DNA from: Antiquaquibacter metalliresistens
GTDB lineage: Bacteria; Actinomycetota; Actinomycetes; Actinomycetales; Microbacteriaceae
Direction of reading: 5' to 3'
Length of the DNA: 64,000 nucleotides
NCBI RefSeq assembly: GCF_029211225.1
Contig: NZ_JARGEM010000001.1
Coordinates: forward strand, 496,001 to 560,000
The notes beneath the pieces were generated by a model, which saw only the letters and a list, made by a program, of their open reading frames with translations, searched no databases and was not told the DNA's origin. Shown here piece after piece: positions 9,711 through 27,921 of this stretch. The position numbers and the translations under genes are program-made. How positions within the stretch are numbered: the first letter of the stretch is position 1; the number at the start of each line of letters is the position of its first letter.

Positions 9711-10327
9711 GGCACGCGTTCCTCGATCCCAGCCCGGTACAGCTCCTCCGGCACCCGGTCGTACACCCGGGATGCTCCGGTGGGGCCCCAGAAGATCGAG
9801 ATGTAGTCGGGGTCGGCGACCGGTCGGGTGGCGAAGCTGTACACGATCCCGTAGCGCTCGAAGGCGGCGAGGCTCGTGCAGGTGCCGCCGCCGGAGAGCC
9901 CGCTCGCCGTGCGCAGGCAGAGCCCGTCGGTCTCGGTGAGATAGACGTAGACATCCCATTCGTCGACGCTCGTGAGCCAGCGCACGCTCGACAGGTCGGG
10001 GTGGTCGCCGACCCGATTGTGGTAGCTGGTCACCGGCAGCCAGGTCGGTGCCGCCCGGTCACGTTGGTTCTGCGCGCGTTCGAAGATCAGCAGCGAACTC
10101 GGCGGATGCTGCGCGCCCGCGACGATCGCCCCGCCGAGCAGCAGGGCCACGACGATGCCGAGGATCCACAGGCGATGCGGTGGCGACCACAGCGTCGCAC
10201 GGGGAGGATCGAAGGTCGGCGGCATCCGGCCGCGCAGCGAGGCGAGCTCTGCCTGTGCACGCGCGCGCTCCTCCGCGGAGGAATCGCGCGCGTAGGCCCG
10301 CCGCTGGAGTTCGGCGAGCCGGGACAT
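9707..10327 (-). CDS. Single-pass membrane protein of unknown function (paralogue of downstream gene)
   Basis: 206 residues, not recognised. N-terminal cytosolic helix with LQRRAYARDSSAEERARAQAEL, a membrane helix at about residues 53-71, and an outside domain with SVRWLTSVDEWDVYVYL and a likely cysteine pair in GLCLRTASGLSGGGTC. The same plan is seen in the next gene, whose start overlaps this stop. It begins three bases after the yajQ stop, so yajQ and both membrane genes probably form one transcript. The N-terminal Arg/Ala/Glu helix resembles the cytosolic end of small actinobacterial membrane proteins sometimes linked to anti-sigma factors, but no sigma gene is adjacent. Confidence 0.78.
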   Translation of the reverse strand: MSRLAELQRRAYARDSSAEERARAQAELASLRGRMPPTFDPPRATLWSPPHRLWILGIVVALLLGGAIVAGAQHPPSSLLIFERAQNQRDRAAPTWLPVTSYHNRVGDHPDLSSVRWLTSVDEWDVYVYLTETDGLCLRTASGLSGGGTCTSLAAFERYGIVYSFATRPVADPDYISIFWGPTGASRVYDRVPEELYRAGIEERVP

Positions 10328-10834: not shown

Positions 10835-10840
10835 GTGACG

Positions 10841-11590
10841 GTGACCGGGCGCCCATGGATCGTCGCCGCCAGCGTGCTGGCGGTCATCGCCGCGATCGCG
10901 CTCGGTGTGCGCCTTGCGACGACTCCGGATGCCGCCGCGCCCCCGTACGCGCTGCAGGCGGCACCGCCGCCCACCGCCGAGTGGGAGGGCGGACCCCCGT
11001 ACCTCGAGGCAGTGGACCCGGGCTGGGTGGAGCGCGCGGCGGCGGCCACCGGCATCCCGCCCGTCGCCATGCTCGCCTACGCCCAGGCTGCCGTCGCGAC
11101 GGGCAACGCCTTCCCGGAGTGCGGCATCGGCTGGAACACGATCGCGGCGATCGGCCTGATCGAGAGCGATCACGGGCGGCACGGCGGTTCGCAGGTCGGC
11201 GAGGACGGCCGGGTGGACCCCCCGATCTTCGGCGTCCCGCTGGACGGCGACGGCGTGGCCCTCATCGCCGACACCGACGGCGGCGCGATTGACGGGGACG
11301 CCGAGCACGACCGCGCGGTCGGGCCGATGCAGATCATCCCGGACACCTGGCGCAGCTGGGCGGTGGACGCGAGCGGTGACGGCGCCGGCGACCCCCAGAA
11401 CATCATGGATGCCGCGTTCGCCGCGTCCAACCACCTCTGCCGCTCGAGCGGCTGGGACATGGTCAGCCGCGAGGGCTGGCGGGCGGGGATCGCCGGATAC
11501 AACGCCGGAGAGCAGTACCTGCGGGACGTGGCATCCGCGGCACAGCACTACCGCGAGGCGGTCGACTCGGCCGGTCAGCCGACCAGCTGA
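10841..11590 (+). CDS. Secreted lytic transglycosylase (MltB/SLT-like)
   Basis: 249 residues. An N-terminal membrane or signal helix (about residues 5-24) precedes a catalytic domain that cleaves peptidoglycan glycan strands. Key signs are the catalytic Glu in AAIGLIESDHGRHGG, VGPMQIIPDTW, a DGAGDPQNIMDA metal-like loop and AGIAGYNAGEQYL. A short cysteine pair (ECGI, HLCRSS) is typical of the actinobacterial group. GTG 10841 is preferred over GTG 10835 because the TAGAAC hexamer then sits 6 bases upstream. The 3' end overlaps the convergent beta-helix gene by 16 bases. Confidence 0.85.
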   Translation: MTGRPWIVAASVLAVIAAIALGVRLATTPDAAAPPYALQAAPPPTAEWEGGPPYLEAVDPGWVERAAAATGIPPVAMLAYAQAAVATGNAFPECGIGWNTIAAIGLIESDHGRHGGSQVGEDGRVDPPIFGVPLDGDGVALIADTDGGAIDGDAEHDRAVGPMQIIPDTWRSWAVDASGDGAGDPQNIMDAAFAASNHLCRSSGWDMVSREGWRAGIAGYNAGEQYLRDVASAAQHYREAVDSAGQPTS

Positions 11591-13698
11591 TACGCGAACT
11601 GCACGGTCAAGTCCTCCGCCCCGGACGCGTCGCTGACCCGCAGACGCAAGCGCCGTGGCGACGAGAGACCGTTGATGCCGAAGGGGGCCGAGAGCGTCGT
11701 CGCCCCGGTGCTCGTGCTCGCCGTGATCGCCGCCGAGCCGGCGGGATCCCCATCGACGAGCATGCGCACCTTGGCGCTCCCCGCGCCGGTGCTCCTGATG
11801 ATCTTGAGCACGAGCACGCGTCGACCGTCCAGGTAGAGCAGCTCGGAGAAGTCGTACTCCCCGTTGGCGACCGAGCCGGGGATGCGGCAGGCGAACCAGC
11901 CGTCGAGCTGCGCGATCCCCTTGTTGTCCGTCACCCGGGACGCCGGGCCGAGCGCATTGAGGGCGTAGGGTGCCTCGAGGTTGCCGTTCAGGTCGTTCGT
12001 GGCGATGAGCACGTCCTGCGCGTCGCTGACGATGCCGTAGCGCTGCCGGTTGGCGCCCTCCGGCAGGCCGCCGATCGAGTTGCCCGTGATCACGACGCGC
12101 GTCGCGTTGCCACGGATGTTGATCCCGGCGCCGTGACGATACGCGGAACCACCACCGCCGTAGCCGCCGAGCGAGGCCCCCGGCAGGTCGAAGTGCGTGT
12201 CGTCGATGACCGTGATGCGCCAGGTGCGCTCGATCGCCGCCCCTCCGGTGCCGGTCACAGAGACGTAGTCGCCTGTCTCCCAGCCGTGCGGCGTGGCCGT
12301 CTCGATGCGCACATCCGCCCCGCTCGCCGCGGCGGAGATCGGGATCGCGAAATCGGGATGCGCCGCCCGGCCGTTGTTGCCGATGACACTGCCGGTGACG
12401 ACGATGCGGGTGGAGTCGATGTCGATGCCGTTGCGACCGGCGCCGCGCACCACCACGTCCGCGAACATCGCGGTGCCGGTGAAGCCGTTGGTGATGCGGA
12501 CGCAGTCGAGCAGCCCGTCGGTGGAGATGTAGGTGTTCGAGAACTTGGCGTCTGCCCCGGCCTCGAGCAGCACCGGATAGCCGTGACTGTTCTCGAACCC
12601 GCCCGCGTTGAAGTACAGGAACTTCGGCAGACTCGCGGAACCGGTCGTGTTGCGCATCCAGATGCCGTGCCGGCCGAACAGGATCGCGGTCGAGATGAAC
12701 TTGATCGAACCCCCGAGGCCATCGAGGACCACGTTGTCGGTGCCGCGATTCTTCGTGCCGGCCGAGATCGCACATTGCACGAACTCGATCGGGTCGGCAC
12801 GGAATGCGTCACCGACACCGTTCAAGAGCACGACCTGCTCACCCCTGAAGCCGTTCCAGACGCAGTGCTGAAAACGAACCGTGTTGCAGCCGCGCAGCAC
12901 GATGCCGTTGTAGCCCTCCTTGAAGCGGCAGGCATAGAAGGAGAGGAAGTAGTTGCCCTGGTCCGGGTCATCCGGATGCTTGTCAGTGCGGATGAACGCG
13001 CCGCCGGTGAGCGTGGGGATGCCCTCGGCATCGACGTCACCGCGCATCTGCAGATCGCGGAAGCCGCCGCCCCGCACACCGCGCAGCACGAAGGCGTCCT
13101 GGTCGCCGGTCGTGATCCGCAGTTGGGTGCCGAGGTCGAACTCGGCTCCGGTCGTCGAGTCCCTGCCATCGCCGGCGCCGGTGCCGACGAAGGTGACCGG
13201 CGCGGTGGTCACGGTGATGGTGCTCGCGATGCGGAACACGCCCGTGCCGAACTGCAGGATGCCGCCGTCGGGCAGCGCGTTGACGGCGGCCTGGATCGCG
13301 GATGCCTGGTCCGTGTCCGGATCGGGCAGCACACCGAACCATGCCAGCGGCACCGCACCATCGGCGACCGGGCGACGCCACCGACCGGTCGAGACCCCAT
13401 CGACGGCGAAGACGAGGCCGCCGTCGTCCGCGCTCTCGTCCGCGTCATCCCAGCGGAGCATGCCACCGCCGACACCGGGGGCCGAGGCGTGATAGCCCAG
13501 CAGGTAGGCGACTTCGCCCTCCTCGCCCTCGGCGGCCCGAGCGGCGGCCACGCTGTCGAACACACGCATCGACTCTGGCGGGTCGGCGTGCGCGGCCGGA
13601 GCGGCCGCGAAGACCGTTGCTCCGGCCGCGAGGCCGCCGATCCCCAGCATGGTGAAGGCCCTCCGGCCGACGGCTGTCTCGGATTGCTCCTGGCTCAT
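11575..13698 (-). CDS. Tat-exported right-handed beta-helix protein
   Basis: 707 residues. The N-terminus carries a Tat signal: GRRAFTMLGIGGLAAG with the twin Arg, a weak hydrophobic core and an AHA cleavage site near residue 38. A domain reminiscent of pectate-lyase-3/tailspike proteins follows (WFGVLPDPDTDQASAIQAAV, then GGILQFGTGVFRIAST), then a long parallel beta-helix region with repeated G(N/T)xxxVVxG turns to about residue 580 and a beta-sandwich tail. Such folds usually bind or cut polysaccharide; no catalytic residues can be assigned. The ATG overlaps the tatC stop (ATGA), tying it to the Tat translocase that would export it. Confidence 0.82.
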   Translation of the reverse strand: MSQEQSETAVGRRAFTMLGIGGLAAGATVFAAAPAAHADPPESMRVFDSVAAARAAEGEEGEVAYLLGYHASAPGVGGGMLRWDDADESADDGGLVFAVDGVSTGRWRRPVADGAVPLAWFGVLPDPDTDQASAIQAAVNALPDGGILQFGTGVFRIASTITVTTAPVTFVGTGAGDGRDSTTGAEFDLGTQLRITTGDQDAFVLRGVRGGGFRDLQMRGDVDAEGIPTLTGGAFIRTDKHPDDPDQGNYFLSFYACRFKEGYNGIVLRGCNTVRFQHCVWNGFRGEQVVLLNGVGDAFRADPIEFVQCAISAGTKNRGTDNVVLDGLGGSIKFISTAILFGRHGIWMRNTTGSASLPKFLYFNAGGFENSHGYPVLLEAGADAKFSNTYISTDGLLDCVRITNGFTGTAMFADVVVRGAGRNGIDIDSTRIVVTGSVIGNNGRAAHPDFAIPISAAASGADVRIETATPHGWETGDYVSVTGTGGAAIERTWRITVIDDTHFDLPGASLGGYGGGGSAYRHGAGINIRGNATRVVITGNSIGGLPEGANRQRYGIVSDAQDVLIATNDLNGNLEAPYALNALGPASRVTDNKGIAQLDGWFACRIPGSVANGEYDFSELLYLDGRRVLVLKIIRSTGAGSAKVRMLVDGDPAGSAAITASTSTGATTLSAPFGINGLSSPRRLRLRVSDASGAEDLTVQFAYQLVG

Positions 13699-14534
13699 GC
13701 TTGTGTTCCCTTCTTCTCGCGCGGGACTCGGCCCGCGACCGTTGTGGAGTCGGCGGCCACCTCGCGGCGCGCTTCGGAGCGTCGAACGCTGCGGTCATGC
13801 AGCAGGGCCGTGCCGGCCGCGCCGAAGTACAGCGCGAGCATCGGGATCGCGAGCAGGAACATCGACAGCACGTCGGCGGCAGGCGTGGCGAGGGCCGTGA
13901 AGATGCAGATCGCGACGATGGCGTAGCGCCATCCGGCGAGGATCGTGCGTCCGGACAACACCCCCATCCAGTTGAGCACGACCAGGAAGAGCGGCAGCAC
14001 GAAGGCGATCCCGACCGCGAGCACGAGCTTGAGCGCGAAGTCGTAGTAGATGCCGGCGCTGAGCAGGGTGGCGGAGGCCTCGGGTGCGAAGCCGGTCATG
14101 AGCACCACGATGTGGGGGAGCACCACGGCCCCGGCCACGCATCCTCCGGCGAACAGCGGCACGGCGGCGCCGACGAAGGCGAAGGTGCCCTTTCGTTCCG
14201 CGCGGGTGAGGCCCGGAACGACGAAGGCGAAGGCCTGGAACAGCCACACGGGCGCCGCGAGGATCAGGCCGATCTGCAGCGACAGCCGCAGGCGGAGGTC
14301 GAACGCCGAGGTCACCGTGTCGAAGTTGAGCGCGGCCTGACGCCCGCCCTCGTCGCCGGACTGCGTGATCGGCTGGATGAGCAGCGCGAGCACCGCATCG
14401 GCGAGGAACCATCCCACCACCGTGCCGATGAGCACGGCGATGGCGGCGATGAACACTCGACGGCGCAACTCCGCGAGGTGAGCGCCGATCGACATGCGCC
14501 GCTCGGGCGTTCGTCTGGGCTTCTCAGCGCGCAT
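13695..14534 (-). CDS. tatC: Twin-arginine translocase subunit TatC
   Basis: 279 residues with six predicted membrane helices. TatC is the signal-peptide receptor of the Tat export complex. The family N-terminus is clear: MSIGAHLAELRRRVFIA (about residues 14-30), followed by a first helix and FDLRLRLSLQIGLILAAPVWLFQAFAFVVPGLTRAERK, the region that binds the twin-Arg peptide (quoted here by key part: LFQAFAFVVPGLTRAERK), then FAxxxP and LALATPAAD near the end. A charged tail follows the last helix. It overlaps tatB by 11 bases upstream and the beta-helix gene by 4 bases downstream. Confidence 0.95.
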   Translation of the reverse strand: MRAEKPRRTPERRMSIGAHLAELRRRVFIAAIAVLIGTVVGWFLADAVLALLIQPITQSGDEGGRQAALNFDTVTSAFDLRLRLSLQIGLILAAPVWLFQAFAFVVPGLTRAERKGTFAFVGAAVPLFAGGCVAGAVVLPHIVVLMTGFAPEASATLLSAGIYYDFALKLVLAVGIAFVLPLFLVVLNWMGVLSGRTILAGWRYAIVAICIFTALATPAADVLSMFLLAIPMLALYFGAAGTALLHDRSVRRSEARREVAADSTTVAGRVPREKKGTQA

Positions 14535-14814
14535 CGGACGTGCCCGCCGAGGGAGGGTGGGCGGCGTCGTCGCCCATCAAGGCGTCCCGGATGACGCGGC
14601 GCGGGTCGTAGCGGCGGGGATCGAGCGTGCGCCAGTCCGCGAGGTCGATGCCGGCGTCATCCCGCAACCGGCGGCGCGTCTCGTCGCTGAGGCCCCGCAT
14701 CCGCCGTACCGCTCGGCGCAGCGTCGCGACCGCGCCGGGCAGCCGTTCGGGTCCGATGACGAACGCCGCGATGGCCAGGATGATCAGCAGCTTCTCGAAC
14801 GTGAGCCCCGACAT
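14524..14814 (-). CDS. tatB: Twin-arginine translocase subunit TatB
   Basis: 96 residues. One N-terminal membrane helix begins MSGLTFEKLLIILAIAAFVI and ends GPERLPGA, the TatB hallmark (Glu early in the helix, GPxxLP at the hinge), followed by an amphipathic Arg-rich helix (RRAVRRMRGL) and a charged tail. TatB passes substrates from TatC to the TatA pore. The longer second half and GPERLP favour TatB over TatA. It lies between tatA (20 bases away) and tatC (11-base overlap). Confidence 0.85.
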   Translation of the reverse strand: MSGLTFEKLLIILAIAAFVIGPERLPGAVATLRRAVRRMRGLSDETRRRLRDDAGIDLADWRTLDPRRYDPRRVIRDALMGDDAAHPPSAGTSDAR

Positions 14815-14834
14815 GATCTGCGCTCCGGCAGCGA

Positions 14835-15017
14835 CTACGCCGCGGTGCGATCCTCGCCGGCGTCGTCGGGCTTCGGATCGCGCAGCTCGGTGCGCAGGAT
14901 GCGCGTCGATTGGCCGAGGCTGCGCGCCAGCTGGGGGAGCTTCGTCGCGCCGAAGAGCAGCACGATCACCGCGACCACGATCAACAGGTGCCAGCCGGAC
15001 ATGTTTGCGAACATCAT
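14835..15017 (-). CDS. tatA: Twin-arginine translocase subunit TatA
   Basis: 60 residues: a short N-terminal outside segment (MMFANMSGWH), a membrane helix (LLIVVAVIVLLFGATKLPQL) with the FGxxKLP hinge, an amphipathic helix (ARSLGQSTRIL) and an acidic tail. TatA forms the translocation pore. Two ATGs in tandem (15017 and 15014) are possible starts; upstream on the coding strand AGAGAGGAACG gives a good Shine-Dalgarno. It follows the FAD oxidoreductase gene by 40 bases in the same orientation. Confidence 0.93.
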   Translation of the reverse strand: MMFANMSGWHLLIVVAVIVLLFGATKLPQLARSLGQSTRILRTELRDPKPDDAGEDRTAA

Positions 15018-15057
15018 CGTTCCTCTCTGTTGCGGCCTCGGCCGCGTTGGTGTCGGC

Positions 15058-16647
15058 CTACCGGCCGACGTCGATCGAATCGGGGAAGTCCAGAGTGTCC
15101 GGGTAGTCCCCGGCGGCGTACACCTCGTCATCCCGCAGCCGGAGCACGCTGCCGAACTCCTCGAGGGCCACCGCCAATGCCGGGTAGTCGTAGTCCTGCA
15201 CGGCGCGACCGGTAGCGAGCGACTGGTGCGCCAGCTCACCGCAGGCCTCGCCGAGCATCCCGAACGCCGGCTCCATGCGCGCCGAGAGGTAGCCGACGTG
15301 GCTCGCCGAGAAGCAGACCGCCACGGCGAGGTTCTCGGCGTCCGCCCGACGGGGCATCAGGCTCTCCGCGGGGAGCTGGTACAGGTCCACGGGCGGGTTG
15401 CTGGTGCTGCCGGTCAAGGTCCCCTCGGCGACCAGGGTGTCGCCCTCGGCCCAGTACTGCGTGATGTGGCAGTCCATGCCGTACTTCCAGTAGGCGACCG
15501 CCGTGGACTTGGTCGCGGATGCACCGAACAGGTCGTGCTCCGTGAGCACATGCTCGCCGACCATCCGGCGGGCCTCGCGGATGTAGAGCGCGTGCGGGAA
15601 CCCGGCGCCGTGCGGGCTGTCGACGAACTCGTCGGCCGGGTAGCCGAAGGCTCGCGTGCGTGCGCGGAACGTCTCCGACAGGGAAGGGTCGTTGGCCATC
15701 CAGTGCAGGAGGCCCTGGTGCCAGCGCACCTGCTCGGCGATGATCTCATCCCGCCGTGCCCAGCTGCCGTCGGGGTAGTCCCAGTTCACCCCGGGCAGGT
15801 CGAATCCGACGACGGGACCCTGGTTGGTCTGGAACTTCTGCCGCGGCAGCGCGGCGGTCTGGGTGACGATGGCGTCGAGTCCCCCGAGCTCGCGCTGCTC
15901 GACGAGGCGCTGGAACAGTCGGTACTCGGAGGGGTCGTAGCCCTCCGGCCGAGCGAACGGCAGCCGGTCATCCGCTGTGGTCAGAACCCCGCGGAAGTTG
16001 TAGGCCTGCACGGCGGCGTCCGCGGCCCCGGGCAGGAGGTCCGGCCGCGCCCGCATGAGGTAGGCGCCCGGCTCGGCGAGGCCCGCGGCGCGGTGCGCGC
16101 GGGTCGGGAGGAACCCGGCATGCTCCTCGCCATACTCCTCGCGCGACTCGCGACCCGTGCGATACGGCACCCCGCTGGCGGCCATCAGGTCGCCCTCGTA
16201 CGAGGCATCGATGAAGAAGTCGGCGCCGATCCAGCCCGGACCCGCGTCGGCGACGCGCACGCCGCGCACACGACCGCCACGCACCTCGACGTCGGCCGGG
16301 CCGTCGATCCGACAGCGCAGGAGCACGTCGACACCGGCGGCATCCAGCAGCTCGCGGCTCACCCGCTCGGCGACCTTCGGTTCGAAACGGTACTGCGCGT
16401 GATCCAGGCCGTACTCGCGACCGATCCCCTCGAAGAACTCCGACAGGGTCAGCCCGCCGAGCGCCGGCAGCACGTTGGGGATGTCGGTCTTGACCAGGCC
16501 GCCCGCGACGATCCCGCCGACATGCTCCGTCGGCTCGAGGATGCACACGGTTCGTCCCCGTCGGCGCAAGCGCACCGCCGCCATGATCCCCGCGAGGGAT
16601 GCACCGTAGATCAGTACGTCGTAGCGCCGCCGCCGCAGGTCGTTCAT
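15058..16647 (-). CDS. FAD-dependent oxidoreductase (PF12831-like), first copy
   Basis: 529 residues. The Rossmann motif DVLIYGASLAGIMAAVRL near residue 9 and ILEPTEHVGGIVAGGL place the FAD; IDASYEGDLMAASGVPY, REARRMVGEHVL and the C-terminal SASHVGYLSARMEPAFGM are shared with the copy at 20222. No signal peptide is seen, so it should act in the cytoplasm. The family is often found beside carbohydrate importers, but its substrates are unknown. Start and upstream stop overlap (ATGA), so it is coupled to the second copy. I infer oxidation of an imported sugar or glycoside. Confidence 0.85.
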   Translation of the reverse strand: MNDLRRRRYDVLIYGASLAGIMAAVRLRRRGRTVCILEPTEHVGGIVAGGLVKTDIPNVLPALGGLTLSEFFEGIGREYGLDHAQYRFEPKVAERVSRELLDAAGVDVLLRCRIDGPADVEVRGGRVRGVRVADAGPGWIGADFFIDASYEGDLMAASGVPYRTGRESREEYGEEHAGFLPTRAHRAAGLAEPGAYLMRARPDLLPGAADAAVQAYNFRGVLTTADDRLPFARPEGYDPSEYRLFQRLVEQRELGGLDAIVTQTAALPRQKFQTNQGPVVGFDLPGVNWDYPDGSWARRDEIIAEQVRWHQGLLHWMANDPSLSETFRARTRAFGYPADEFVDSPHGAGFPHALYIREARRMVGEHVLTEHDLFGASATKSTAVAYWKYGMDCHITQYWAEGDTLVAEGTLTGSTSNPPVDLYQLPAESLMPRRADAENLAVAVCFSASHVGYLSARMEPAFGMLGEACGELAHQSLATGRAVQDYDYPALAVALEEFGSVLRLRDDEVYAAGDYPDTLDFPDSIDVGR

Positions 16648-18323
16648 CGGACCACCGCCCGCGGTCCGCGATCCTCGGGGAGCGGGTACAGCGGCGTGCG
16701 CCCGACCGCCTGCGAAGGTCGAGTGCGGCGGATCTGCTCGGGCCAGGCGACCGGTGCGCCCAGCTTCTGCTCGAGCGTGCGCTGCAGGTCTCCAACGAGT
16801 CGGGGTGACTCGGCGACCGCGTGCGGTTCGGTGCGCTCCGCGATGCACTGGGCCGCGAGCGCTCCGGCCGCCTCGCCGATCGACCATTCGACCGGGTGCA
16901 GGCGATAGCAGCCGTTGGTGAGGTGGGTCGTGCCGATGTTCTTCGCCGCCGGGATGAGGTTGCGAACACGCACGGGCACGAGCGCCCCGAGCGGGATCTG
17001 GAACGGGTAGCACTCCAGGTTGACGTAGTTCATGCCAGCGGCCGAGGGGTGCAGGTCGATGTTGTAGTGCCCGATACCGACCGAGTCGGCGAATCGAGCG
17101 GCGCCGTCGCCCTCGGGCCGGTCCACGACGGCGACGTGCTGCTCCACGACGGTGAACAGCGCCCGGATTCTGCGGGACTCGCGCACGTAGACCTGCTTGG
17201 CCAGGCCATCCTTCGTGCCCGTGATGTCGGGCCGGAGCCGGAGCTCGGGGTAGCCGACCCCACCGTCGTGGCGCGGAGCCTCGGTCTGCATCCAGTGCAG
17301 GTAGGAGAGCGAGAGCTCGCGCGCGCGTTGCAGAGCCCACTGCCGTTCGGTCTCGCCGATGCCCGGGCCGACCAGCGGCGCCTCCCAATAGTCGGTGTTG
17401 GGCCAGTTGACCAGCGAGATGTCCGTCGCGATCACGTTCGGATCGAACTGGGTGCGAGCCCGAATCCGACGGAAGTGCCAGAGGTCCGCTCCACGGGGTT
17501 CGTCCATGTCGACCTCGAAGATGCGGTTCTCCCGTCCGCGGTTGGAGTGGATGTCGATCTTGAACCAGGACAGCTGCGGTCCGGGCCAGAACGGGTCCAC
17601 GTGCGTGAGCCAGTGGTCGTAGGAGGCCGGCCGGTCCACGACGTGCGACTCACCCGGCCTGAACTCGAGTGGGAAGCACCACGTCACCGCCTGCTGATCG
17701 CGCCAGTCCGCGACGTCGGGGGCGAAGCGCTCCCCGGTCTCGAGGCTCGACTCCGAGCCGACGACGTGCTCCACCTGCGCGAGTTCGAGCAGGTCACCGA
17801 GCTCGGTCGCGTCGATGACGATGTCGGCGGTGAGGTGTGTCGGCTCGCCGGTGTCGAGGTCGAGGAAGGTGACGCCGGACACCCGGTCGCCATCGACCGA
17901 GGCCGAAAGCGGTCTCAATCGGTGGCGTACCGTCACGAGGCCCGCCGAGCGCACCCCCGCGAGCATCTCGTCGATCGCGGCGACGGCGGCCAGCGGCTCG
18001 GCGCAGAGCCGACTGACATTGCCGAGCCCGGGGTTGAGCTCGTCGATCTGCCGTGCGGCATCCGTCAGCGGGTAGTTGCGCCGATAGTAGTCACGCACCC
18101 GCGTGCGCAGGTCGGCATAGCTCGACGAGGTGACGCCCTGCTCGATCCAAGGGTGCTCGTCCGAGGGCACGGCCTGCGCCGTCAGCTGCCCGCCCAGCCA
18201 CTCGGTCTCCTCCGTGAGCACCACCGCAACGCCCAGGCGAGCCGCGGCGAGCGCCGCCGACACCCCGCCGAGGCCCCCGCCGACGATCAGGATCGGGGAA
18301 TGGGCCGGTGTTGTGATGGTCAT
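16644..18323 (-). CDS. FAD-dependent oxidoreductase (PF12831-like), second copy
   Basis: 559 residues, no signal peptide. It has ILIVGGGLGGVSAALAAARL (about residues 11-30), TEETEWLGGQLTAQAVPSDE, IDATELGDLLELAQV, VRESRRIRAL, and HLTNGCYRLHPVEWSIGEAA at the C-terminus. It is the most diverged of the three copies in this locus: the GGQLTAQ loop and HPVEWSIGEAAG end differ from the SASHVxY ends of the other two. It starts 41 bases after the solute-binding protein gene and overlaps the next gene by 4 bases. The reaction is unknown. Confidence 0.85.
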   Translation of the reverse strand: MTITTPAHSPILIVGGGLGGVSAALAAARLGVAVVLTEETEWLGGQLTAQAVPSDEHPWIEQGVTSSSYADLRTRVRDYYRRNYPLTDAARQIDELNPGLGNVSRLCAEPLAAVAAIDEMLAGVRSAGLVTVRHRLRPLSASVDGDRVSGVTFLDLDTGEPTHLTADIVIDATELGDLLELAQVEHVVGSESSLETGERFAPDVADWRDQQAVTWCFPLEFRPGESHVVDRPASYDHWLTHVDPFWPGPQLSWFKIDIHSNRGRENRIFEVDMDEPRGADLWHFRRIRARTQFDPNVIATDISLVNWPNTDYWEAPLVGPGIGETERQWALQRARELSLSYLHWMQTEAPRHDGGVGYPELRLRPDITGTKDGLAKQVYVRESRRIRALFTVVEQHVAVVDRPEGDGAARFADSVGIGHYNIDLHPSAAGMNYVNLECYPFQIPLGALVPVRVRNLIPAAKNIGTTHLTNGCYRLHPVEWSIGEAAGALAAQCIAERTEPHAVAESPRLVGDLQRTLEQKLGAPVAWPEQIRRTRPSQAVGRTPLYPLPEDRGPRAVVR

Positions 18324-18364
18324 GCTGTCTCTCCGTTGCGGGTGGTCGGTGCGTGAGGTGGTGA

Positions 18365-19996: not shown

Positions 19997-20221
19997 GTCG
20001 TTCCTCCTTTGGCTGCGACGCGACTTGCTATTGGCGATATCTTTTGGCGTATCGCTAGCTTTCCGCTTTCGGACGACGGTAGAGGCCGAAGAACGGCCAT
20101 GTCAAGCATTCTTTTCGGGGTTCGCTAGATGCAAGTAATTGGTCATAACTAGCTTGCGTATCGCCGAACAACTTGCTAGACAAGGTCCGTACCCGACATC
20201 GTCGTCACGAAAGGACCGCAG
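19997..20221. promoter_or_regulatory. Divergent promoter and likely LacI operator region
   Basis: This 225-bp control region is clearly AT-richer than its surroundings. It holds a recurring motif CTTGC-N5-GC(G/C)GA: ACTTGCTATTGGCGAT at 20024, ACTTGCATCTAGCGAA on the minus strand (20138-20123) and GCTTGCGTATCGCCGA at 20152, plus a partial copy ACTTGCTAGACAAG at 20171. TTGGCGATATC and TTGGCGTATC repeat at 20032 and 20045. The neighbouring LacI gene at 21796 is the obvious candidate binder. Exact -35/-10 boxes are not clear. Confidence 0.6.
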
Positions 20222-21799
20222 GTGACCAAGGACCACGGCGCGCTTCCGGGCGTGCGCTACCTGCTCGAACCCGAGGTCTCGGCCGAAGAGCGGCGCAGCG
20301 ACGTCGTCGTCTACGGCGCGACCTCCGGCGGGGTGGCGGCGGCGCGCCGTGCAGCGCTCGAGGGTCGGTCCGTCACCCTCCTCGTGTTCGACGACCACAT
20401 CGGCGGCATGACCACCGGTGGCCTCGGACTGACGGATGTCGGCGACGCGCGCACCGTCGGAGGTCTCGCCCGCGCCTTCTACGACGCGATCGCGCACGCG
20501 TACGGCTCGTCCTCGCCGCGGTGGTTCTTCGAGCCGCACGTGGCCATGGACGTCTTCGAACAGTGGTTGAGTCATCCCCTCATCACCGTACGGCGCCGCC
20601 AGCAGCTCGCCGAGCTCGAACGCAGCGGGGCCAGGATCACGGCGCTTCGCACCCGCGACGGCAGTCGCTATCTGGCCGACGTTTTCATCGATGCGAGCTA
20701 CGAAGGCGACCTGATGGCGGCGGCGGGAGTCAGCTACACCGTCGGTCGTGAGGACGCGTCGGTGTACGACGAGGCGCTGGCCGGCGCGCAGCCCGGCGAC
20801 GGTCATCAGTTCATCGCCCCGGTGGACCCCTACCGCCGCGTCGGCGACCCCGCGAGCGGCCTGCTCGAAGGCATCGATGCCGCGCCGTTCGGCACGGTCG
20901 GCGATGGCGACCGGCGTGTGCAGGCGTACAACTTCCGGCTCTGTGTCACGACCGCGGCCGACCGCGTGCCGTTCCCGCGGCCGCACGACTACCGACCCGA
21001 GCGCTACGAGCTGCTGCTGCGGTACCTCGGCACCGGCGAGTTCGACCTCACCGGCCGCACCGTGCTGGTGCACGACGACGTCTACGACATGAACAACCAC
21101 GGCGCGGTCTCCAGCGACTACATCGGCGGCTCGTGGGAGTGGCCCGAGGCCACGTTCGAGCGCCGCAGCGAGATCTTCGACGATCACGTCTCGTATCAGG
21201 CGGGGATGCTGTTCTTCCTCGCCAACGACCCTCGCGTGCCGGCCGCCGTGCGAGAGGTCGCGAACCGCTTCGGGCTCTCGCCGCGCGAGTTCGTCGGCAC
21301 GGGAGGATGGTCCCCGCAGCTCTACGTGCGCGAGGCGCGGCGGATGATCGGCGAACGTGTGGTCACCCAGCGCGACGCTTCGCAACCCGACGCCGTGCAC
21401 GATCCGATCGCTCTGGCGTCGTACACGATGGACTCGCACCACGTGCGTCGTTACGTCGCCGACGGCCGGGTGATCAACGAGGGCAATGTGCAGGTCGAGC
21501 TCGTCGGCCCGTTCGGCATCTCGTACCGCTCGATCCTGCCGGTGCGGGAGGAGTGCGAGAACCTGCTCGTGATCGCCGCGATCTCGGCCTCCCACGTGGC
21601 CTACTCGTCGGTGCGGATGGAGCCGGTCTTCATGATGATCGGCGACAGCGCCGGCACCGCGGCATCGCTGAGCATCGAGAGCGGCACCGCCCTGCACGAC
21701 ATCGACTACGCACGGCTCGCCCAGGCGCTGTCGGACCGCGGCGCACTGCTCGGGAGCCCGAGTGCCGTCCCCGCGTCGGCGGGAGAGAATGTGCCATGA
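20222..21799 (+). CDS. FAD-dependent oxidoreductase (PF12831-like), third copy
   Basis: 525 residues, cytosolic. FAD-binding DVVVYGATSGGVAAARRAAL lies near residue 26, then HIGGMTTGGLGLTDVGD; IDASYEGDLMAAAGVSYTVG, REARRMIGERVVTQRD and SASHVAYSSVRMEPVFMM match the copy at 15058 closely. The GTG start has an AAAGGA Shine-Dalgarno 8 bases upstream. It is first gene of the rightward operon and overlaps the LacI gene (ATGA at 21796). Having three homologous flavoenzymes in one locus suggests successive or alternative oxidations of one substrate class. Confidence 0.87.
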   Translation: MTKDHGALPGVRYLLEPEVSAEERRSDVVVYGATSGGVAAARRAALEGRSVTLLVFDDHIGGMTTGGLGLTDVGDARTVGGLARAFYDAIAHAYGSSSPRWFFEPHVAMDVFEQWLSHPLITVRRRQQLAELERSGARITALRTRDGSRYLADVFIDASYEGDLMAAAGVSYTVGREDASVYDEALAGAQPGDGHQFIAPVDPYRRVGDPASGLLEGIDAAPFGTVGDGDRRVQAYNFRLCVTTAADRVPFPRPHDYRPERYELLLRYLGTGEFDLTGRTVLVHDDVYDMNNHGAVSSDYIGGSWEWPEATFERRSEIFDDHVSYQAGMLFFLANDPRVPAAVREVANRFGLSPREFVGTGGWSPQLYVREARRMIGERVVTQRDASQPDAVHDPIALASYTMDSHHVRRYVADGRVINEGNVQVELVGPFGISYRSILPVREECENLLVIAAISASHVAYSSVRMEPVFMMIGDSAGTAASLSIESGTALHDIDYARLAQALSDRGALLGSPSAVPASAGENVP

Positions 21800-22857
21800 C
21801 GAGTGATCGTGCAATCCAGCCCCGACAGGCCGACATCGCCCGGGCCGCGGGCGTCTCCCAATCCACGGTGTCCCTGGTGCTCGCCGGCTCAGGCGATCTC
21901 TCCCGGGTGTCGCCGGCCACCTATGCGCGAGTGATCAAGGCGGCGACCGACCTCGGCTACGACGGCCCTGTGATGGTAACCAGGCCGCGCAGTCGGCGCC
22001 TGCAACTCGGCGTGCACACCTTCGAGCGGGTGTTCCCCACCCGGTCGAGCGACTACTACACCCAGTTCCTGACGGCGATCGAGGAGCAGGCCGCGATCGA
22101 GGGATGCAACCTCATCCTCTTCACCGCCCTGCATCAGCCCGGCGGCGATCACCGGCTGTACGCCGAGGGCCGCAACGAACTGCGGCACGCATCCGGAAGC
22201 CTGCTGCTGGGTCGCAGCACGGACGACGACGACGTGGCGAAGCTCATCGACGACAACTACCCCTTCGTCTACGTCGGGGAGCGCACGATCGAGGGACGCT
22301 CCGTCAACTTCGTCGGTGCGGACTATCGCACCACCACCGGTCAGCTCACCGCCGAGCTGCTCGGCCTCGGCCACACCCGGATCGGATACCTCGGCGAACC
22401 ATCGCGCACGCCCCTCCAGGAGCAGCGCTGGAACGGCTTCCTCGACGTGCTCACGCGCTTCGGCCTCAGTGCGCCGACACCGAGCTTTCTGAGTCCGGAC
22501 GAGCTGAGCGCCGAGTGGCTCGATGCCCAACTGCGCTCGGGCGTGACGGCGCTGCTCATCGAGGCTGCGACGCAGCTCAAGGTGATCGAGACCCTCGCGG
22601 CGATCGGCGGCATCGGCATCCCGGAACAGCTCTCGGTGGTGCTGCTCGTCGACGTGCCCGCCGACTCGCCGACGACGCGGGACTGGGCGCAGCTCAACGT
22701 GCCGCGCGCCGATATGGGCAGCAGGGCGGTGCAGCTGCTCATCGAGATCATCCGCAACCCGACCGGCTCCTACGAGCGTCAGGTGCTGCTGCCGTGCCAC
22801 TACACGCTCGGCGCCACCACCGGCGCCCCGGCACCCCCCGATTCCACGAGGACGTGA
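21796..22857 (+). CDS. LacI-family transcriptional regulator (locus-specific)
   Basis: 353 residues. The N-terminal helix-turn-helix and hinge are QADIARAAGVSQSTVSLVLA (about residues 11-30) and VIKAATDLGYDG; a periplasmic-binding-like effector domain follows (FVYVGERTIEGRSVNFVGAD, LGHTRIGYLGEPSRTP). It probably senses an imported sugar and controls the divergent promoters at 19997-20221. It is embedded in the rightward operon between the flavoenzyme and permease genes, overlapping the former by 4 bases, so it would be autoregulated. Confidence 0.92.
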   Translation: MTSDRAIQPRQADIARAAGVSQSTVSLVLAGSGDLSRVSPATYARVIKAATDLGYDGPVMVTRPRSRRLQLGVHTFERVFPTRSSDYYTQFLTAIEEQAAIEGCNLILFTALHQPGGDHRLYAEGRNELRHASGSLLLGRSTDDDDVAKLIDDNYPFVYVGERTIEGRSVNFVGADYRTTTGQLTAELLGLGHTRIGYLGEPSRTPLQEQRWNGFLDVLTRFGLSAPTPSFLSPDELSAEWLDAQLRSGVTALLIEAATQLKVIETLAAIGGIGIPEQLSVVLLVDVPADSPTTRDWAQLNVPRADMGSRAVQLLIEIIRNPTGSYERQVLLPCHYTLGATTGAPAPPDSTRT

Positions 22858-22865
22858 GAAGGAAC

Positions 22866-23840
22866 ATGACCACCACCGGGTCCACTTGGACTGGCGCCGC
22901 ACGGGCGCGAAACGACGGCAGCGTCAGGCGCGTGCCGCGATCGGCACGGCTGCGCCGCGACTGGGTGCTCCTGGCGCTCGCGGTACCGGGTATCGCTCTG
23001 CTCCTGCTGTTCCAGTACGTGCCGCTGCTGGCCAACGTCATCGCATTTCAGGACTACCAGCCCTACATCGGCATCTGGAGCTCGCCCTTCGTCGGGTTCC
23101 AGAACTTCGAGATCCTCTTCAATGGCGACCCGGCCTTCGTCAGGGCGCTGCTGAACACCCTCCTGATCTCCTTCGTGCAGATCGTCGTGATCTTTCCACT
23201 TCCGATCGCGCTCGCGCTGACGCTGAACACGCTGCTGCACGACACCGTGAAGAAGGTGGTGCAGACGGTGCTGTACCTGCCGCACTTCATGTCGTGGGTG
23301 ATCGTGGTGGCGATCTTCCAGAACGTGCTCGGCAACGGCGGGCTGCTCAACACCTGGCTGCGCTCGATCGGAGCGGAGGGATTCGACATCGTCGGCAATC
23401 CCGACATGTTCCTGGCGCTCATCACGAGCCAGGCGGCGTGGAAAGACGTCGGATGGGCCTCGATCCTGTTCCTCGCGGCGCTCTCGCGCATCGACCCGAA
23501 CCTCTACGAGGCCGCCGACATGGATGGCGCGAACCGGTGGCAGCAGACCTGGCATGTCACGCTCCCCGGCATCAAGGGCATCATCGTGCTGCTGCTGATC
23601 CTGCGGCTCGGCGATGTGCTCACCGTCGGTTTCGAGCAGATCGTGCTGCAACAGCAATCCGTGGGTCGAGAGGTGTCGGAAGTGCTCGACACCTACGTCT
23701 ACAACAACGGCATCATCAACGGCGAATGGGGCACGGCTGCCGCCGTCGGCCTGGTGAAAGGGGTGGTGAGCGTCGTGCTCGTGCTGGGTGCGAACAAGCT
23801 CGCCCACCTCTTCGGCGAGAGAGGCGTGTATCAATCATGA
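22866..23840 (+). CDS. ABC sugar-importer permease (LplB-like)
   Basis: 324 residues with about six membrane helices. The permease EAA loop is EAADMDGANRWQQTWHVTLPG near residue 217 (key residues EAA...G.....F/W..I.LP). An LplB-type N-terminus (LLALAVPGIALLLLFQYVPL) and FQDYQPYIGIWSSPFVGFQN are typical of permeases that work with LipO-like binding proteins. It starts 8 bases after the LacI gene with GAAGGAAC as Shine-Dalgarno and overlaps the next permease gene by 4 bases. No ATPase gene is present in the locus. Confidence 0.93.
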   Translation: MTTTGSTWTGAARARNDGSVRRVPRSARLRRDWVLLALAVPGIALLLLFQYVPLLANVIAFQDYQPYIGIWSSPFVGFQNFEILFNGDPAFVRALLNTLLISFVQIVVIFPLPIALALTLNTLLHDTVKKVVQTVLYLPHFMSWVIVVAIFQNVLGNGGLLNTWLRSIGAEGFDIVGNPDMFLALITSQAAWKDVGWASILFLAALSRIDPNLYEAADMDGANRWQQTWHVTLPGIKGIIVLLLILRLGDVLTVGFEQIVLQQQSVGREVSEVLDTYVYNNGIINGEWGTAAAVGLVKGVVSVVLVLGANKLAHLFGERGVYQS

Positions 23841-24745
23841 CGGCACTCACCTATCGGTCACGTCGTCGCAGGCGCACGCCGGCGGCCATCGGGTGGTCGA
23901 CGCTCAAGGGGGTGGTGCTCGCCGCGGCCTGTGCGGTGGTGCTGATCCCGTTCGTCATGGTGATCTCCACCAGCCTGGCGGACCCCCAGCAGGTGAACGC
24001 GGCGGGCGGCTTCGTGCTCTGGCCCGAGCATCCGTCGTTCGCCGCGTACGAGGCGATCCTCTCCGGCGGGACGGTCACGCGGGCCGTGCTGGTGAGCATC
24101 GGGGTCACGCTCGTCGGCACCGCCGTCTCGCTCGCCTGCACCACGACGCTCGCCTACGCGCTCGCTCGCCCCGGCTCGTTCGCACACAAGCCGCTGCTGC
24201 TCATCGTGCTCTTCACGCTGTTGTTCAGCCCGGGCATGATCCCGACCTACCTCGTGGTGGCGCAGCTGGGTCTCATCGACAGCTGGTGGTCGCTCATCCT
24301 GCCCGTCGCCGTGAACGCCTTCAACGTGATCATCATGCGGGCGTTCTTCCTCGACCTGCCTCAGGACCTGTTCGAGTCGGCACGGCTCGACGGGGCCGGT
24401 GAGGTGCGCATCTTCCTGCGCATCGTGCTGCCGCTCTCCGGCGCGGTGATCGCCGTGGTCGGACTGTTCTACGCGGTCGCGTACTGGAACAACTTCTTCA
24501 ACGCGCTGCTCTATCTCAACGACACCGCGATGTGGCCGCTGCAGTTGATCCTGCGCACCTACGTGATCAACGGCAGCCCCCTCGGCGGCGACGCCCTCGG
24601 CGCGGGCGGCGAGGCGACGCAGCTGCCCCAGCAGTCCTTGCAGATGGCGATCCTGGTGCTGAGCATCGTGCCGATCCTGCTGGTCTACCCCTTCCTTCAG
24701 CGGCACTTCGCGAAGGGCGTGCTCGTGGGCGCCGTCAAGGGATGA
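23837..24745 (+). CDS. ABC sugar-importer permease (YtcP/LplC-like)
   Basis: 302 residues, six predicted membrane helices. The EAA-type loop is ESARLDGAGEVRIFLRIVLP near residue 190, and LLFSPGMIPTYLVVAQLGLIDSWW and PFLQRHFAKGVLVGAVKG at the end are typical of this permease class. It is the partner of the preceding permease and, by inference, of the binding protein at 18365. It overlaps both neighbours by ATGA junctions, including the GH92 gene downstream. Confidence 0.93.
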   Translation: MTALTYRSRRRRRTPAAIGWSTLKGVVLAAACAVVLIPFVMVISTSLADPQQVNAAGGFVLWPEHPSFAAYEAILSGGTVTRAVLVSIGVTLVGTAVSLACTTTLAYALARPGSFAHKPLLLIVLFTLLFSPGMIPTYLVVAQLGLIDSWWSLILPVAVNAFNVIIMRAFFLDLPQDLFESARLDGAGEVRIFLRIVLPLSGAVIAVVGLFYAVAYWNNFFNALLYLNDTAMWPLQLILRTYVINGSPLGGDALGAGGEATQLPQQSLQMAILVLSIVPILLVYPFLQRHFAKGVLVGAVKG

Positions 24746-27700
24746 GGGATGACTACGCGGAGTCGTTCGAGCGAGCGAACGACCCCGAGCCTCCGCCCCT
24801 GCCCGGACTCGCCACCTGGGTGGACTCCGGTCCGGACCGCGGCAGCACGGCCGCGCTCGGGCGCGGCTTCACGGGCCTGCACGCACTCGCCTTCCGGCAT
24901 CAAGCGGAGGAGGGCCAGGTCGATGCGGTCGTGCTCGCGAGCCCCCTCGCAGTTCGCGTGCACCCCGACTCCCAGCTGCGTTATCTGGTGTTCCCCGGTT
25001 CCGAATCGCAGCGACCGTTCGCCGCGACCGGGGTGAGCCTGGACCTGCTCTTCGACGACGGGTCTCGGGCCTCCGATCATGGGCTGCGCGACCAGATCGG
25101 GGCTGCGCTGCATCCCGCCGGGCAGTTGGCCGCACGTGCGCTCACACCGGACCAATGGAATCTCGTCGTCGTCGACCTCGGGGCGATGGCGGGTCGCACG
25201 GTGATCGCCGTCGAGCTGGTGGCGGTCGGGGCCGGGGTCTCTTGGGGCTGGATCGACGACGTCTCGATCGCTCGGGTGAACGAACCCGTCGGCCTGTCGC
25301 CCGCCGAGCTCGTGGATACTCGGCGGGGCACGAACTCGAGCCGCTCGGCCTCGCGCGGCAACACGATTCCGGCCACCGCCCTGCCGAACGGCTTCAACCT
25401 GCTCGTGCCGATGACCGACGCGACGTCGCAGAAGTGGCTGTACCAGTACTCGAGTGGGAACGGACCGGACAACCGGCCCCGCCTGGAGGCGCTGGGCATC
25501 TCCCACCAGCCGAGCCCATGGATGGGCGATCGCGACCAGTTGGCGATCATGCCGGCTCGCGCCGGAGACGAGGTGCTCGCACTCCCGAGCGCACGCGCCC
25601 TCGCCTTCGGGCACGCCGCCGAACAGGCGCGCCCCCACGAGTATCGGGTCGTCTTCGACTGCGGTCTGGAGGCGGCGATGGTTCCGACCATGCGAGGCGC
25701 CTGCCTCCGGTTCAGCGCATCGTTCGATCTCGCCGTGATCGTCGACAGGGTCGCCGGCGAATCGCGATTCGACATCGACGCCGACGGTCGGCTGTCCGGT
25801 TGGGTCGACGGCGGCACGGACCTCTCGGTCGGGCGCAGCAGGATGTTCGTCGCGGGGCGGTTCGACCGGCGCCCCGTGCACGTCGACGTCGCCCCCGATC
25901 GGGAGTCCGCGCTCGTCGCGCAGTTCGACGGGGATGTGGAGCTGCGCATCGCCACCTCGTACCTCTCGATCGAGCAGGCGGAGTTCAACCTGCGTGAGAC
26001 CGAGGAGGGCTACGACGCCGTCAGGAGGGCGGCGAAGGACGCGTGGGATCGCGTGCTCGGCGTGATCGAGGTGGAGGGCGCCCGGCACGACGACCGCGTC
26101 ACGCTCTACTCGAACCTCTACCGGCTCAATCTCTACCCGAACTGGTACGACGAATGCACCCCGACCGGTGAGCACCGCTACGCCAGTCCGGTGCTGCCGC
26201 AGCGCCCGTCGACGGACTCGACCACCGGGGCGCAGGTGCGCGACGGGCGCATGGCGGTGAACCACGGCTTCTGGGACACCTATCGCACGGTGTGGCCCGC
26301 CTACGCGCTGCTCTACCCCTCGCGAACCTCGGCGCTGATCGACGCGTTCATGCAGCAGTACCGAGACAGCGGCTGGATCGCGCGGTGGTCCTCGCCGGGT
26401 CACGCCGACCTGATGACCGGCACGAGCGCCGACGTGGCCTTCGCCGACGCGATCATCAAGTCGGTGTCGATCGCCGACGCCGACGAAGTGCTCGAGGCCC
26501 TGCTCAAGAGCGCGACCGTCGTGCCCCCGGCCGCGAATCTCGGGCGCAAAGGTCAGGCAGTGAGCCCGTTCCTCGGGTACGTGCCGAGCGGTGTCACCGA
26601 GAGCGCCTCCTGGACCACCGAGAACGCGATCAACGATGCCGGCATCGCGGCGTTGGCCGAGCACCTGGCCCGGGACGAGCGCACGAGCGGGGCGCGCCGC
26701 CGCGAACTCGAAGACCTCGCCCGGTATCTGCGCCACCGCTCGTCGGCCTACCGGCGCCTGTTCGACGCCGAGACCGGATTCCTGCGCGCCCGACGCGAGG
26801 ACGGAGCCTGGGACCCGCCGGGCTTCGACCCGGAGGAGTGGGGCGGCCCGTACACGGAGACCAACGCCTGGACCTTCGCGTTCCACGCCCCACACGACGG
26901 CGGAGGACTCGTGGAGGTCTTCGGCGGCCAGCGCGAACTCGCGGCGCGCCTCGACGCCTACTTCGGCACCGTGGAGACCGGAACGAAAGCGGGAACGTAC
27001 GGCGGCGTCATCCACGAGATGACCGAGGCACGCGACGTCAGGCTCGGGCAGTTCGGATTCAGCAACCAGCCTGCGCACGCCATGCCGTTCCTCTACCTCT
27101 TCGCGGGGCGTCCGTGGCGCACTCAGGAGCTGCTTCGCGATGTGCTCACGAGGCTGTTCCGCGGCAATGAGATCGGGCAGGGGTATCCCGGCGACGAGGA
27201 CAACGGCGAGATGTCGGCCTGGCACCTGTTCGGATGCCTCGGCCTCTACCCGTTGCACCTCGGCGCCGCGCGCTACGCCGTGACCGCGCCGTTGTTCCCC
27301 GCCGCGCGCGTGCGGCTCGAGTCCGGACGCGTCCTCTCGGTCATCGCGGACCGGCACGGCGCCGATCGACCGTACGTCTCCGAGGTGAGCTTCGACGGCG
27401 TTCCCCTGACATCCCCGTGGATCGACCACGAGCGGATCGCCGCGGGCGGCGTGCTCCGCTTCGTCATGAGCGATCGGCCCTCGGCCTGGGGGATCGTGCC
27501 GCCGCCCGCACCGCTGCCGTCGCCGTTGCGCGATCTCACGCGCGGCGCGACGGTGCGCACGGACGGTGGCGCCGACGCCTCAGCCCTCATCGACGACGAC
27601 GCACGCACCGACCTGGTGTTCCAGAGCGACCGCGTCACGGTCGAGCTCGAGCTCGCCGAGGGTCCGTCGAGCATCCTGCTCTACACCCTGACCTGCGCCG

Positions 27701-27921
27701 AAGCGTCGATGGCGCCGACGGGCTGGGAACTGCACGGGTGCACCGCCGATGGCTGGATCGCGATCGATGTCCGCCGAGACGAGCGGTTCCGCTGGCCTCG
27801 GCAGACCCGACCGTTCTCGGTGGCACCGCACCCGGCCTGCTCCGGCTATCGTCTGGTGCTGGAGGGCGGTGAGCGGGGGCTGGCGCTCGCCGAGTTCGAG
27901 CTGCTCGCCGAAGAGGACTAG
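24742..27921 (+). CDS. GH92 family exo-alpha-mannosidase, cytosolic
   Basis: 1059 residues. GH92 enzymes are calcium-dependent inverting alpha-mannosidases acting on N-glycan or mannan branches. Signs are DTRRGTNSSRSASRGNTIPA, GFWDTYRTVWPAYALLYP near residue 508, TETNAWTFAFHAPHDGGGL, and the hallmark GYPGDEDNGEMSAWHLFGCL near residue 817, which holds the catalytic acids. The last ~130 residues look like a discoidin (F5/8)-type domain. There is no signal peptide: the protein begins MRDDYAESFERANDPEPPP, so it should act on imported oligosaccharide. It is last in the operon, and its stop overlaps the stop of the convergent LacI gene. Confidence 0.93.
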   Translation: MRDDYAESFERANDPEPPPLPGLATWVDSGPDRGSTAALGRGFTGLHALAFRHQAEEGQVDAVVLASPLAVRVHPDSQLRYLVFPGSESQRPFAATGVSLDLLFDDGSRASDHGLRDQIGAALHPAGQLAARALTPDQWNLVVVDLGAMAGRTVIAVELVAVGAGVSWGWIDDVSIARVNEPVGLSPAELVDTRRGTNSSRSASRGNTIPATALPNGFNLLVPMTDATSQKWLYQYSSGNGPDNRPRLEALGISHQPSPWMGDRDQLAIMPARAGDEVLALPSARALAFGHAAEQARPHEYRVVFDCGLEAAMVPTMRGACLRFSASFDLAVIVDRVAGESRFDIDADGRLSGWVDGGTDLSVGRSRMFVAGRFDRRPVHVDVAPDRESALVAQFDGDVELRIATSYLSIEQAEFNLRETEEGYDAVRRAAKDAWDRVLGVIEVEGARHDDRVTLYSNLYRLNLYPNWYDECTPTGEHRYASPVLPQRPSTDSTTGAQVRDGRMAVNHGFWDTYRTVWPAYALLYPSRTSALIDAFMQQYRDSGWIARWSSPGHADLMTGTSADVAFADAIIKSVSIADADEVLEALLKSATVVPPAANLGRKGQAVSPFLGYVPSGVTESASWTTENAINDAGIAALAEHLARDERTSGARRRELEDLARYLRHRSSAYRRLFDAETGFLRARREDGAWDPPGFDPEEWGGPYTETNAWTFAFHAPHDGGGLVEVFGGQRELAARLDAYFGTVETGTKAGTYGGVIHEMTEARDVRLGQFGFSNQPAHAMPFLYLFAGRPWRTQELLRDVLTRLFRGNEIGQGYPGDEDNGEMSAWHLFGCLGLYPLHLGAARYAVTAPLFPAARVRLESGRVLSVIADRHGADRPYVSEVSFDGVPLTSPWIDHERIAAGGVLRFVMSDRPSAWGIVPPPAPLPSPLRDLTRGATVRTDGGADASALIDDDARTDLVFQSDRVTVELELAEGPSSILLYTLTCAEASMAPTGWELHGCTADGWIAIDVRRDERFRWPRQTRPFSVAPHPACSGYRLVLEGGERGLALAEFELLAEED

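Follow-up and report, generated by a model that had tools for sequence, protein, structure and literature searches.

A predicted glycan-utilisation locus with three flavoenzymes, a GH92 glycosidase and in-operon tatABC genes in Antiquaquibacter metalliresistens

The window analysed here is a 64,000-nucleotide stretch of the genome of Antiquaquibacter metalliresistens (contig NZ_JARGEM010000001.1, positions 496,001 to 560,000). Window positions 11575-27921 hold a block of twelve genes in two divergent arms around a 225-bp control region. From the control region outwards, the seven leftward genes encode a solute-binding protein (SBP), two flavoenzymes (FAD1, FAD2), the twin-arginine translocation (Tat) proteins TatA, TatB and TatC, and a beta-helix protein; the five rightward genes encode a third flavoenzyme (FAD3), a LacI-family regulator, two permeases (A, then B) and a GH92 glycosidase. 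In layout it is a predicted glycan-utilisation locus. Its enzyme set is unusual, and none of the relatives examined has a translocase at this place. The features are as follows.

11575-13698, minus strand: beta-helix protein with Tat-like signal, weakly similar to tail-spikes and depolymerases (Beta_helix and RHGA-type models, E 1e-4, under cut-offs)
13695-14534, minus strand: TatC (PF00902, E 5e-53)
14524-14814, minus strand: TatB-like protein (NCBIfam TatB models, E 1e-10 to 1e-13, all below cut-offs; no Pfam match)
14835-15017, minus strand: TatA (PF02416, E 8e-14)
15058-16647, minus strand: FAD2, PF12831 flavoenzyme, no signal peptide seen (Pfam)
16644-18323, minus strand: FAD1, PF12831 flavoenzyme (Pfam)
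18365-19996, minus strand: SBP, sugar-type, with Tat-like lipoprotein signal (SBP_bac_1)
19997-20221, no strand: control region between the divergent arms (225 bp)
20222-21799, plus strand: FAD3, PF12831 flavoenzyme (Pfam)
21796-22857, plus strand: LacI-family regulator (Pfam)
22866-23840, plus strand: ABC permease A (BPD_transp_1)
23837-24745, plus strand: ABC permease B (BPD_transp_1)
24742-27921, plus strand: GH92, predicted cytosolic, with the alpha-1,2-mannosidase residue set (PF07971, E 5e-123; PF17678, E 8e-21)

Gene calls and family scans bear out the gene content, coordinates and strands given in a preliminary description of this DNA, with weaker matches for TatB and the beta-helix protein, and the control region that it placed between the arms is present. 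The description also had most gene borders overlapping at ATGA; such overlaps exist, but at only five of the ten same-strand borders, and a sixth overlap, between tatC and tatB, is 11 bp long. All three flavoenzymes match PF12831 over their full length in Pfam (E 3e-81, 1e-95 and 3e-97). The sugar-type SBP, which matches solved SBPs of that type at E 6e-6, and the two permeases are the parts of a CUT1-type importer, and the Pfam scan found no ABC ATPase gene among the twelve block genes.

To place this gene set among relatives, FAD1 was searched in 394 genomes of the class and in genome contigs, where it had 246 relatives, the best 80 of which were analysed as loci. Matches with E values up to 1e-30 were present in 45 of the 394 genomes, the window's own included, and five others were 70-71% identical; the best 80 contig relatives included two from Streptomyces, at 69-71%. 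The two Streptomyces loci, from Streptomyces radicis and Streptomyces sp. SBT349, carry permease B-permease A-LacI-FAD3 divergent from SBP-FAD1-FAD2, which is the window's own seven-gene divergent order, with identities of 48-74%; no beta-helix gene was found within the flanks fetched. The other five genomes are named Jiangella here because another genome of their group shares an identical 4638-bp stretch with Jiangella ureilytica. Four of them have LacI-FAD3 divergent from a run of FAD1, FAD2, GH38, GDSL esterase, SBP, permease A, permease B and beta-helix genes; in the fifth, the contig ends within the GH38 gene and the beta-helix gene lies on a separate contig.

FAD3-LacI is divergent from FAD1 or from SBP-FAD1 in all seven of these core loci, and the permeases belong to the FAD1 arm in Jiangella and to the FAD3-LacI arm in Streptomyces and the window. 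Permease A is 67-74% and permease B 67-73% identical in the relatives, FAD3 is 58-63% and LacI 46-51% identical in the seven core loci, and FAD2 is 65-67% identical in five of the twelve Jiangella genomes examined. Among the 394 genomes, full-length beta-helix relatives (53-56%) occur in exactly the five Jiangella genomes with FAD1 at 70-71%, apart from the window's own; the gene is at the core locus in all four with unbroken sequence there, and six further genomes of the class have partial matches at 33-38%. By homology, then, eight window genes (those for SBP, FAD1-3, LacI, the two permeases and the beta-helix protein) are a recurring set, with tatA, tatB, tatC and the GH92 gene outside it. 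Among the genomes searched, the twelve-gene order is private to this one; the predicted system itself is not.

The block also looks to have been gained as a whole. Its left end overlaps the end of SLT, a transglycosylase-like gene (10835-11590), and its right end that of LacI2 (27918-28931), which is another LacI gene. We searched the neighbouring gene yajQ in 27 genomes of the genus, including the window's own, and compared the window genes with the recovered stretches (about 1.5 kb on each side). SLT is followed by LacI2 in 11 of the 26 congeners, with a gap of about 400 bp in one and the genes close together in the rest, and no block gene occurs in any of the 26 stretches; this points to the gain of the block as one unit. 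Within these stretches, two further congeners have SLT without LacI2, and 13 have neither gene. A whole-genome search found the beta-helix gene absent from nine congeners among 398 genomes of the family. Loss of the block from all congeners is possible, but a less simple explanation. The G+C content of the block is 0.690, against 0.692 in its surroundings. A tRNA-Tyr gene lies upstream of LacI2 (29047-29129), and 12 of the 27 stretches recovered around yajQ (1.5-kb flanks) have tRNA-Tyr beside that gene; insertion at this tRNA gene was ruled out, as the block sits between SLT and LacI2, away from it. Also beside yajQ are two genes of no assigned family (9156-10327) that resemble each other at about 30%; some congeners have relatives of them in the corresponding position.

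What hints most strongly at the substrate is that two unrelated alpha-mannosidase-type families, GH92 and GH38, are found beside the same importer and flavoenzymes. GH92 is the sole glycosidase of the window; among solved structures it best matches the alpha-1,2-mannosidase NnGH92 (7nsn, E 7e-240). Its residues W260, E706, H758, E759, D818 and D820 align with Trp88, Glu533, His584, Glu585, Asp642 and Asp644 of Bt3990. Compared with the alpha-1,2-mannosidase residues listed in the available portion of PMC10167667 (a general acid, two bases and a Trp/His/Glu triad at the +1 subsite), the window enzyme keeps the full set: general acid E706, bases D818 and D820, and triad W260/H758/E759. Reading of the sequence gave no N-terminal signal. 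In all seven core loci, a GH38-type protein comes after FAD2. Pfam GH38N finds it in one Jiangella locus (L126, E 6e-22), in S. radicis (L045, E 3e-20) and in Streptomyces sp. SBT349 (L046, E 4e-21); elsewhere the call was made by clustering (L127-L129) or by 89% similarity (L125, cut by a contig end). Seven more distant FAD3 relatives were also found, three of them with flanks, and there GH38 is near in two (L172, L174) and the protein scanned in the third (L173) is GH2-like. Given the residue set of GH92, and the GH38-type protein standing in for it in every core relative, the substrate probably contains an alpha-mannoside. Among the 26 congeners, GH92 was matched in four, two at 45-46% and two weakly; one 46% relative (G1031, L208:5248-17753) lies beside a GH78 rhamnosidase, a GH2 protein and a binding protein and permeases of its own, and the second one fetched is on a 4-kb contig.

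Two products of the leftward arm carry N-terminal signals that read as Tat-like: GRRAFT... in the beta-helix protein and SRRQLL...LLAAC in the SBP, the latter also matched by Pfam TAT_signal below its cut-off (E 0.004; E 0.008). All six core loci that hold an SBP gene encode a twin-arginine (RR) signal and a lipobox in its product, and the four beta-helix homologues with an N-terminus all start MSTG(D/E)RTISRRGLS. The RR pattern is present in 6 of 6 core SBPs and in 7 of the 34 other SBP-like proteins of high GC used as controls, a difference (Fisher test, 4e-4) that is only indicative because several of the 34 control proteins are cut or mis-started. RR signals are likewise present in the Jiangella GDSL and S. 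radicis GxGYxYP proteins, and a secreted GDSL esterase or GxGYxYP protein suggests work on an extracellular glycan. The Streptomyces FAD2 homologues (L045:11601-13199 and L046:11599-13194) have a Tat-like signal of their own, MERRRFLTAAATA..., unlike the window FAD2, so this flavoenzyme may act outside the cell there and inside it here; no N-terminal signal was read in the window's FAD1, FAD2 or FAD3.

Relatives of the beta-helix protein were limited to its own copy in the 398 family genomes, with none in plasmids and none confirmed in viral contigs. A single-sequence structure model of the protein was unusable (mean predicted local distance difference test score, pLDDT, 37.8). Elsewhere in Jiangella and in Actinophytocola, FAD1-family loci encode a beta-helix/RHGA-type protein near the flavoenzyme (L080:11586-13442, with relatives in L072, L073 and L087); the L080 protein, which was Pfam-scanned, has an RR signal.

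The tat genes lie between FAD2 and the Tat-type cargo, the beta-helix protein, with tight or overlapping borders, so that the same-strand run from SBP to beta-helix encodes them together with two proteins whose RR signals were read by eye. TatA is clear by Pfam; a separate TatB rests on NCBIfam matches below their cut-offs. The operon TatC keeps 31 of the 32 near-invariant residues of 27 other TatC rows. In a TatC tree it clusters among 13 rows from its own family (100/99); its branch is long (0.72) and lies outside the group of seven (93/84) that holds the housekeeping copy, which shows that it is not a recent copy of the housekeeping gene.

The genome has that other tatA-tatC pair beside genes read as pafBC and a helicase gene, and two TatC matches are listed for 11 of 296 class genomes, its own included. 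According to the available text of one survey (PMC3827258), about 5% of species have two or more tatC loci; Microbacterium testaceum is one of these. The genome studied here also contains a third TatA-like frame, about 74 kb from the block (L175, C1:436308-436436). One genome of the same family (G078, L170) has, besides its helicase-linked tatC, another tatA-tatC pair elsewhere, near which no flavoenzyme genes were called, and 13 phage-collection records contain TatC matches of up to 40%.

We know of no reaction for the flavoenzyme family of FAD1-3, and none was named in the open-licence PMC literature that we found. Sugar-type importers often adjoin FAD1 relatives: permease A homologues are present in 43 of the 88 FAD1-relative loci clustered. 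Plasmids also hold relatives (54 records for FAD1; 29 for FAD3, best 44%), and the neighbours of four plasmid FAD3 matches (TonB receptors, vir genes, and a mannonate dehydratase together with ABC genes) pointed to no function.

The control region has a G+C content of 53% and contains four of the window's 21 CTAG sites, a count reached in 174 of 20000 base shuffles (P about 0.009); with base composition taken into account, the cluster is modest. TTGCTA/TAGCAA has two copies here (73 of 20000 shuffles) and two in either Streptomyces region; the five Jiangella control regions have one copy between them, and GCTGATATCAGC was found in four of those five. In the seven relatives' control regions, no palindrome did better than 34 of 200 shuffles.

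Taken together, these observations may be explained by one module for the utilisation of an alpha-mannosylated polymer or oligosaccharide, a Tat-dependent route of depolymerisation, import and digestion that acquired its own translocase; we give this proposal about an even chance of being right. LacI, acting at the 225-bp region, would repress both arms. Once they are induced, the TatABC of the operon would export the folded beta-helix protein and the lipoprotein SBP, either to meet an export load or because it is tuned to these two cargoes. The beta-helix protein would then cut the polymer outside the cell, and the SBP and both permeases, using an ATPase encoded elsewhere, would import the oligosaccharides. 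In the cytosol, GH92 would remove alpha-1,2-mannose and FAD1-FAD3 would perform redox steps on the sugar that remains or on a modified sugar. The preliminary description had already proposed a single system with an exported beta-helix protein, an alpha-mannoside and a cytosolic GH92. Insertion of the block as a unit and the core kept in two other lineages support the single system; the beta-helix signal, predicted from the N-terminus, agrees with export, the GH92 residue set and its GH38 stand-ins with the alpha-mannoside, and the missing signal on GH92 with a cytosolic enzyme. It also took an order confined to one strain as a mark against the single-system reading, and had suggested a search for the order in other genomes; this condition applies only in part, since the full twelve-gene order is seen only here but eight of the genes recur together as a locus.

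Several results weigh against this proposal. The beta-helix protein resembles depolymerases weakly, through Pfam matches below cut-off, the PHROG family 'EPS depolymerase' (E 7e-9), similarly weak tail-spike matches and one PDB entry (6c72, E 2e-5); it has no NCBIfam match, and Pfam TAT_signal does not find it. An AlphaFold2 model of FAD1 was good (mean pLDDT 92.2, from a 48-row alignment), and a Foldseek search with it matched various flavoenzymes, TMq reaching 0.35 among the matches listed, and gave no usable function; in a sequence search of solved structures, seven weak matches to FAD1 and none to FAD3 included no functional relative. In the relatives, the GH38 proteins have diverged (their best match in the PDB has E 1e-5), so that mannosidase activity is only assumed for them. 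The best candidate LacI operator palindrome in the window's control region was reached by 200 of 200 base shuffles, leaving none beyond chance. Lastly, no tat gene was found in the flanks fetched for the Jiangella loci (best E 0.01) or for the best 80 of the 246 contig FAD1 loci (E up to 1e-3); being absent from all relatives' loci examined, tatABC is not needed for the core.

This last result is what one would expect if the glycan module were real and tatABC a passenger, a second translocase without a specific role in a cell whose housekeeping Tat can export both cargoes. The seven core loci and the 80 FAD1 loci have no tat genes nearby, although Tat-like signals are present on the relatives' SBP and beta-helix proteins, this genome does hold the other tatA-tatC, and second tatC copies are known elsewhere (the 11 of 296 class genomes; two loci in M. 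testaceum, in the part of PMC3827258 available). We nonetheless regard a passenger as rather unlikely, given an apparently complete A-B-C set inside the operon, tightly bordered between FAD2 and a Tat-type cargo, and a TatC with its near-invariant residues kept in spite of the long branch.

A different reading concerns the substrate, which might be a small mannosylated compound that GH92 demannosylates in the cytosol before the flavoenzymes attack the aglycone or modified sugar, with the beta-helix protein serving in binding or at the cell surface. For the breakdown of a polymer, one exo-glycosidase and three flavoenzymes make a small toolkit, the beta-helix protein is not confidently a known enzyme, and the fetched flanks of both Streptomyces loci lack it; set against these are an importer layout of the oligosaccharide type (SusCD-like or CUT1-like), the secreted Jiangella and S. 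radicis proteins that suggest an extracellular glycan, and the weak EPS-depolymerase and tail-spike matches themselves, and we consider a small compound unlikely. Divergent neighbours can also be unrelated, and the arms might be two separate operons brought side by side by chance. This is very improbable: FAD3-LacI keeps its divergent place in every core locus, the permeases switch arms between Jiangella and Streptomyces or the window, the importer itself is split over both arms here, and both arms came in one insert.

More broadly, the locus may represent a glycan route of actinobacteria that is not yet described: three PF12831 flavoenzymes would do essential redox steps on an alpha-mannosylated substrate, either of the unrelated mannosidase families GH38 and GH92 would fill one slot, export through Tat would be fixed for a folded depolymerase and the SBP, and one lineage would have built a private TatABC into the operon; this broader scheme is possible but doubtful. 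What was an isolated gene list is now a conserved module that can be tested, has a likely substrate class and includes three flavoenzymes whose chemistry is unassigned, and it raises the question of whether this is a natural case of a cargo-dedicated Tat translocase inside a catabolic operon outside the Bacilli.

Importers of the LplB/YtcP/LipO kind are CUT1-type oligosaccharide ABC importers. The window resembles them in its large SBP, two permeases, LacI and lack of an ATPase gene in the block, and differs in that its SBP, similar to the six homologues, has a Tat-like lipoprotein signal. In Bacillus, TatAd-TatCd with PhoD is a Tat pair linked to its cargo. Similar to that arrangement, the window's second Tat set is encoded next to its likely cargo; unlike it, the set is a TatABC in an actinobacterial catabolic operon and its cargo dedication is putative. 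Multiple tatC genes in Bacilli are also described in the available text of PMC3827258.

The solved NnGH92 (7nsn) and Bt3990 (available portion of PMC10167667) have the acid, bases and +1 triad in common with the window GH92, which differs in its lack of a signal peptide and its place in an operon with flavoenzymes, its activity being predicted from residues. The closest described neighbourhood is the xanthan utilisation region of Paenarthrobacter ilicis 6C, also actinobacterial, for which the accessible part of the report gives ABC permeases, a binding protein, an FAD-dependent oxidoreductase, LacI and a GH38 alpha-mannosidase side by side (PMC12772297). Likened by gene families only, the region as described there differs from the window in having PL8, GH9 and GH3 enzymes, a single listed flavoenzyme and no tat gene; the search for a PL8 xanthan lyase, GH9 endoxanthanase or GH3 enzyme covered the twelve block genes, not the rest of the genome, and found none. 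Of this xanthan-type combination of GH38, flavoenzyme, LacI and importer, the core relatives have the GH38-type protein, and the window has GH92 instead.

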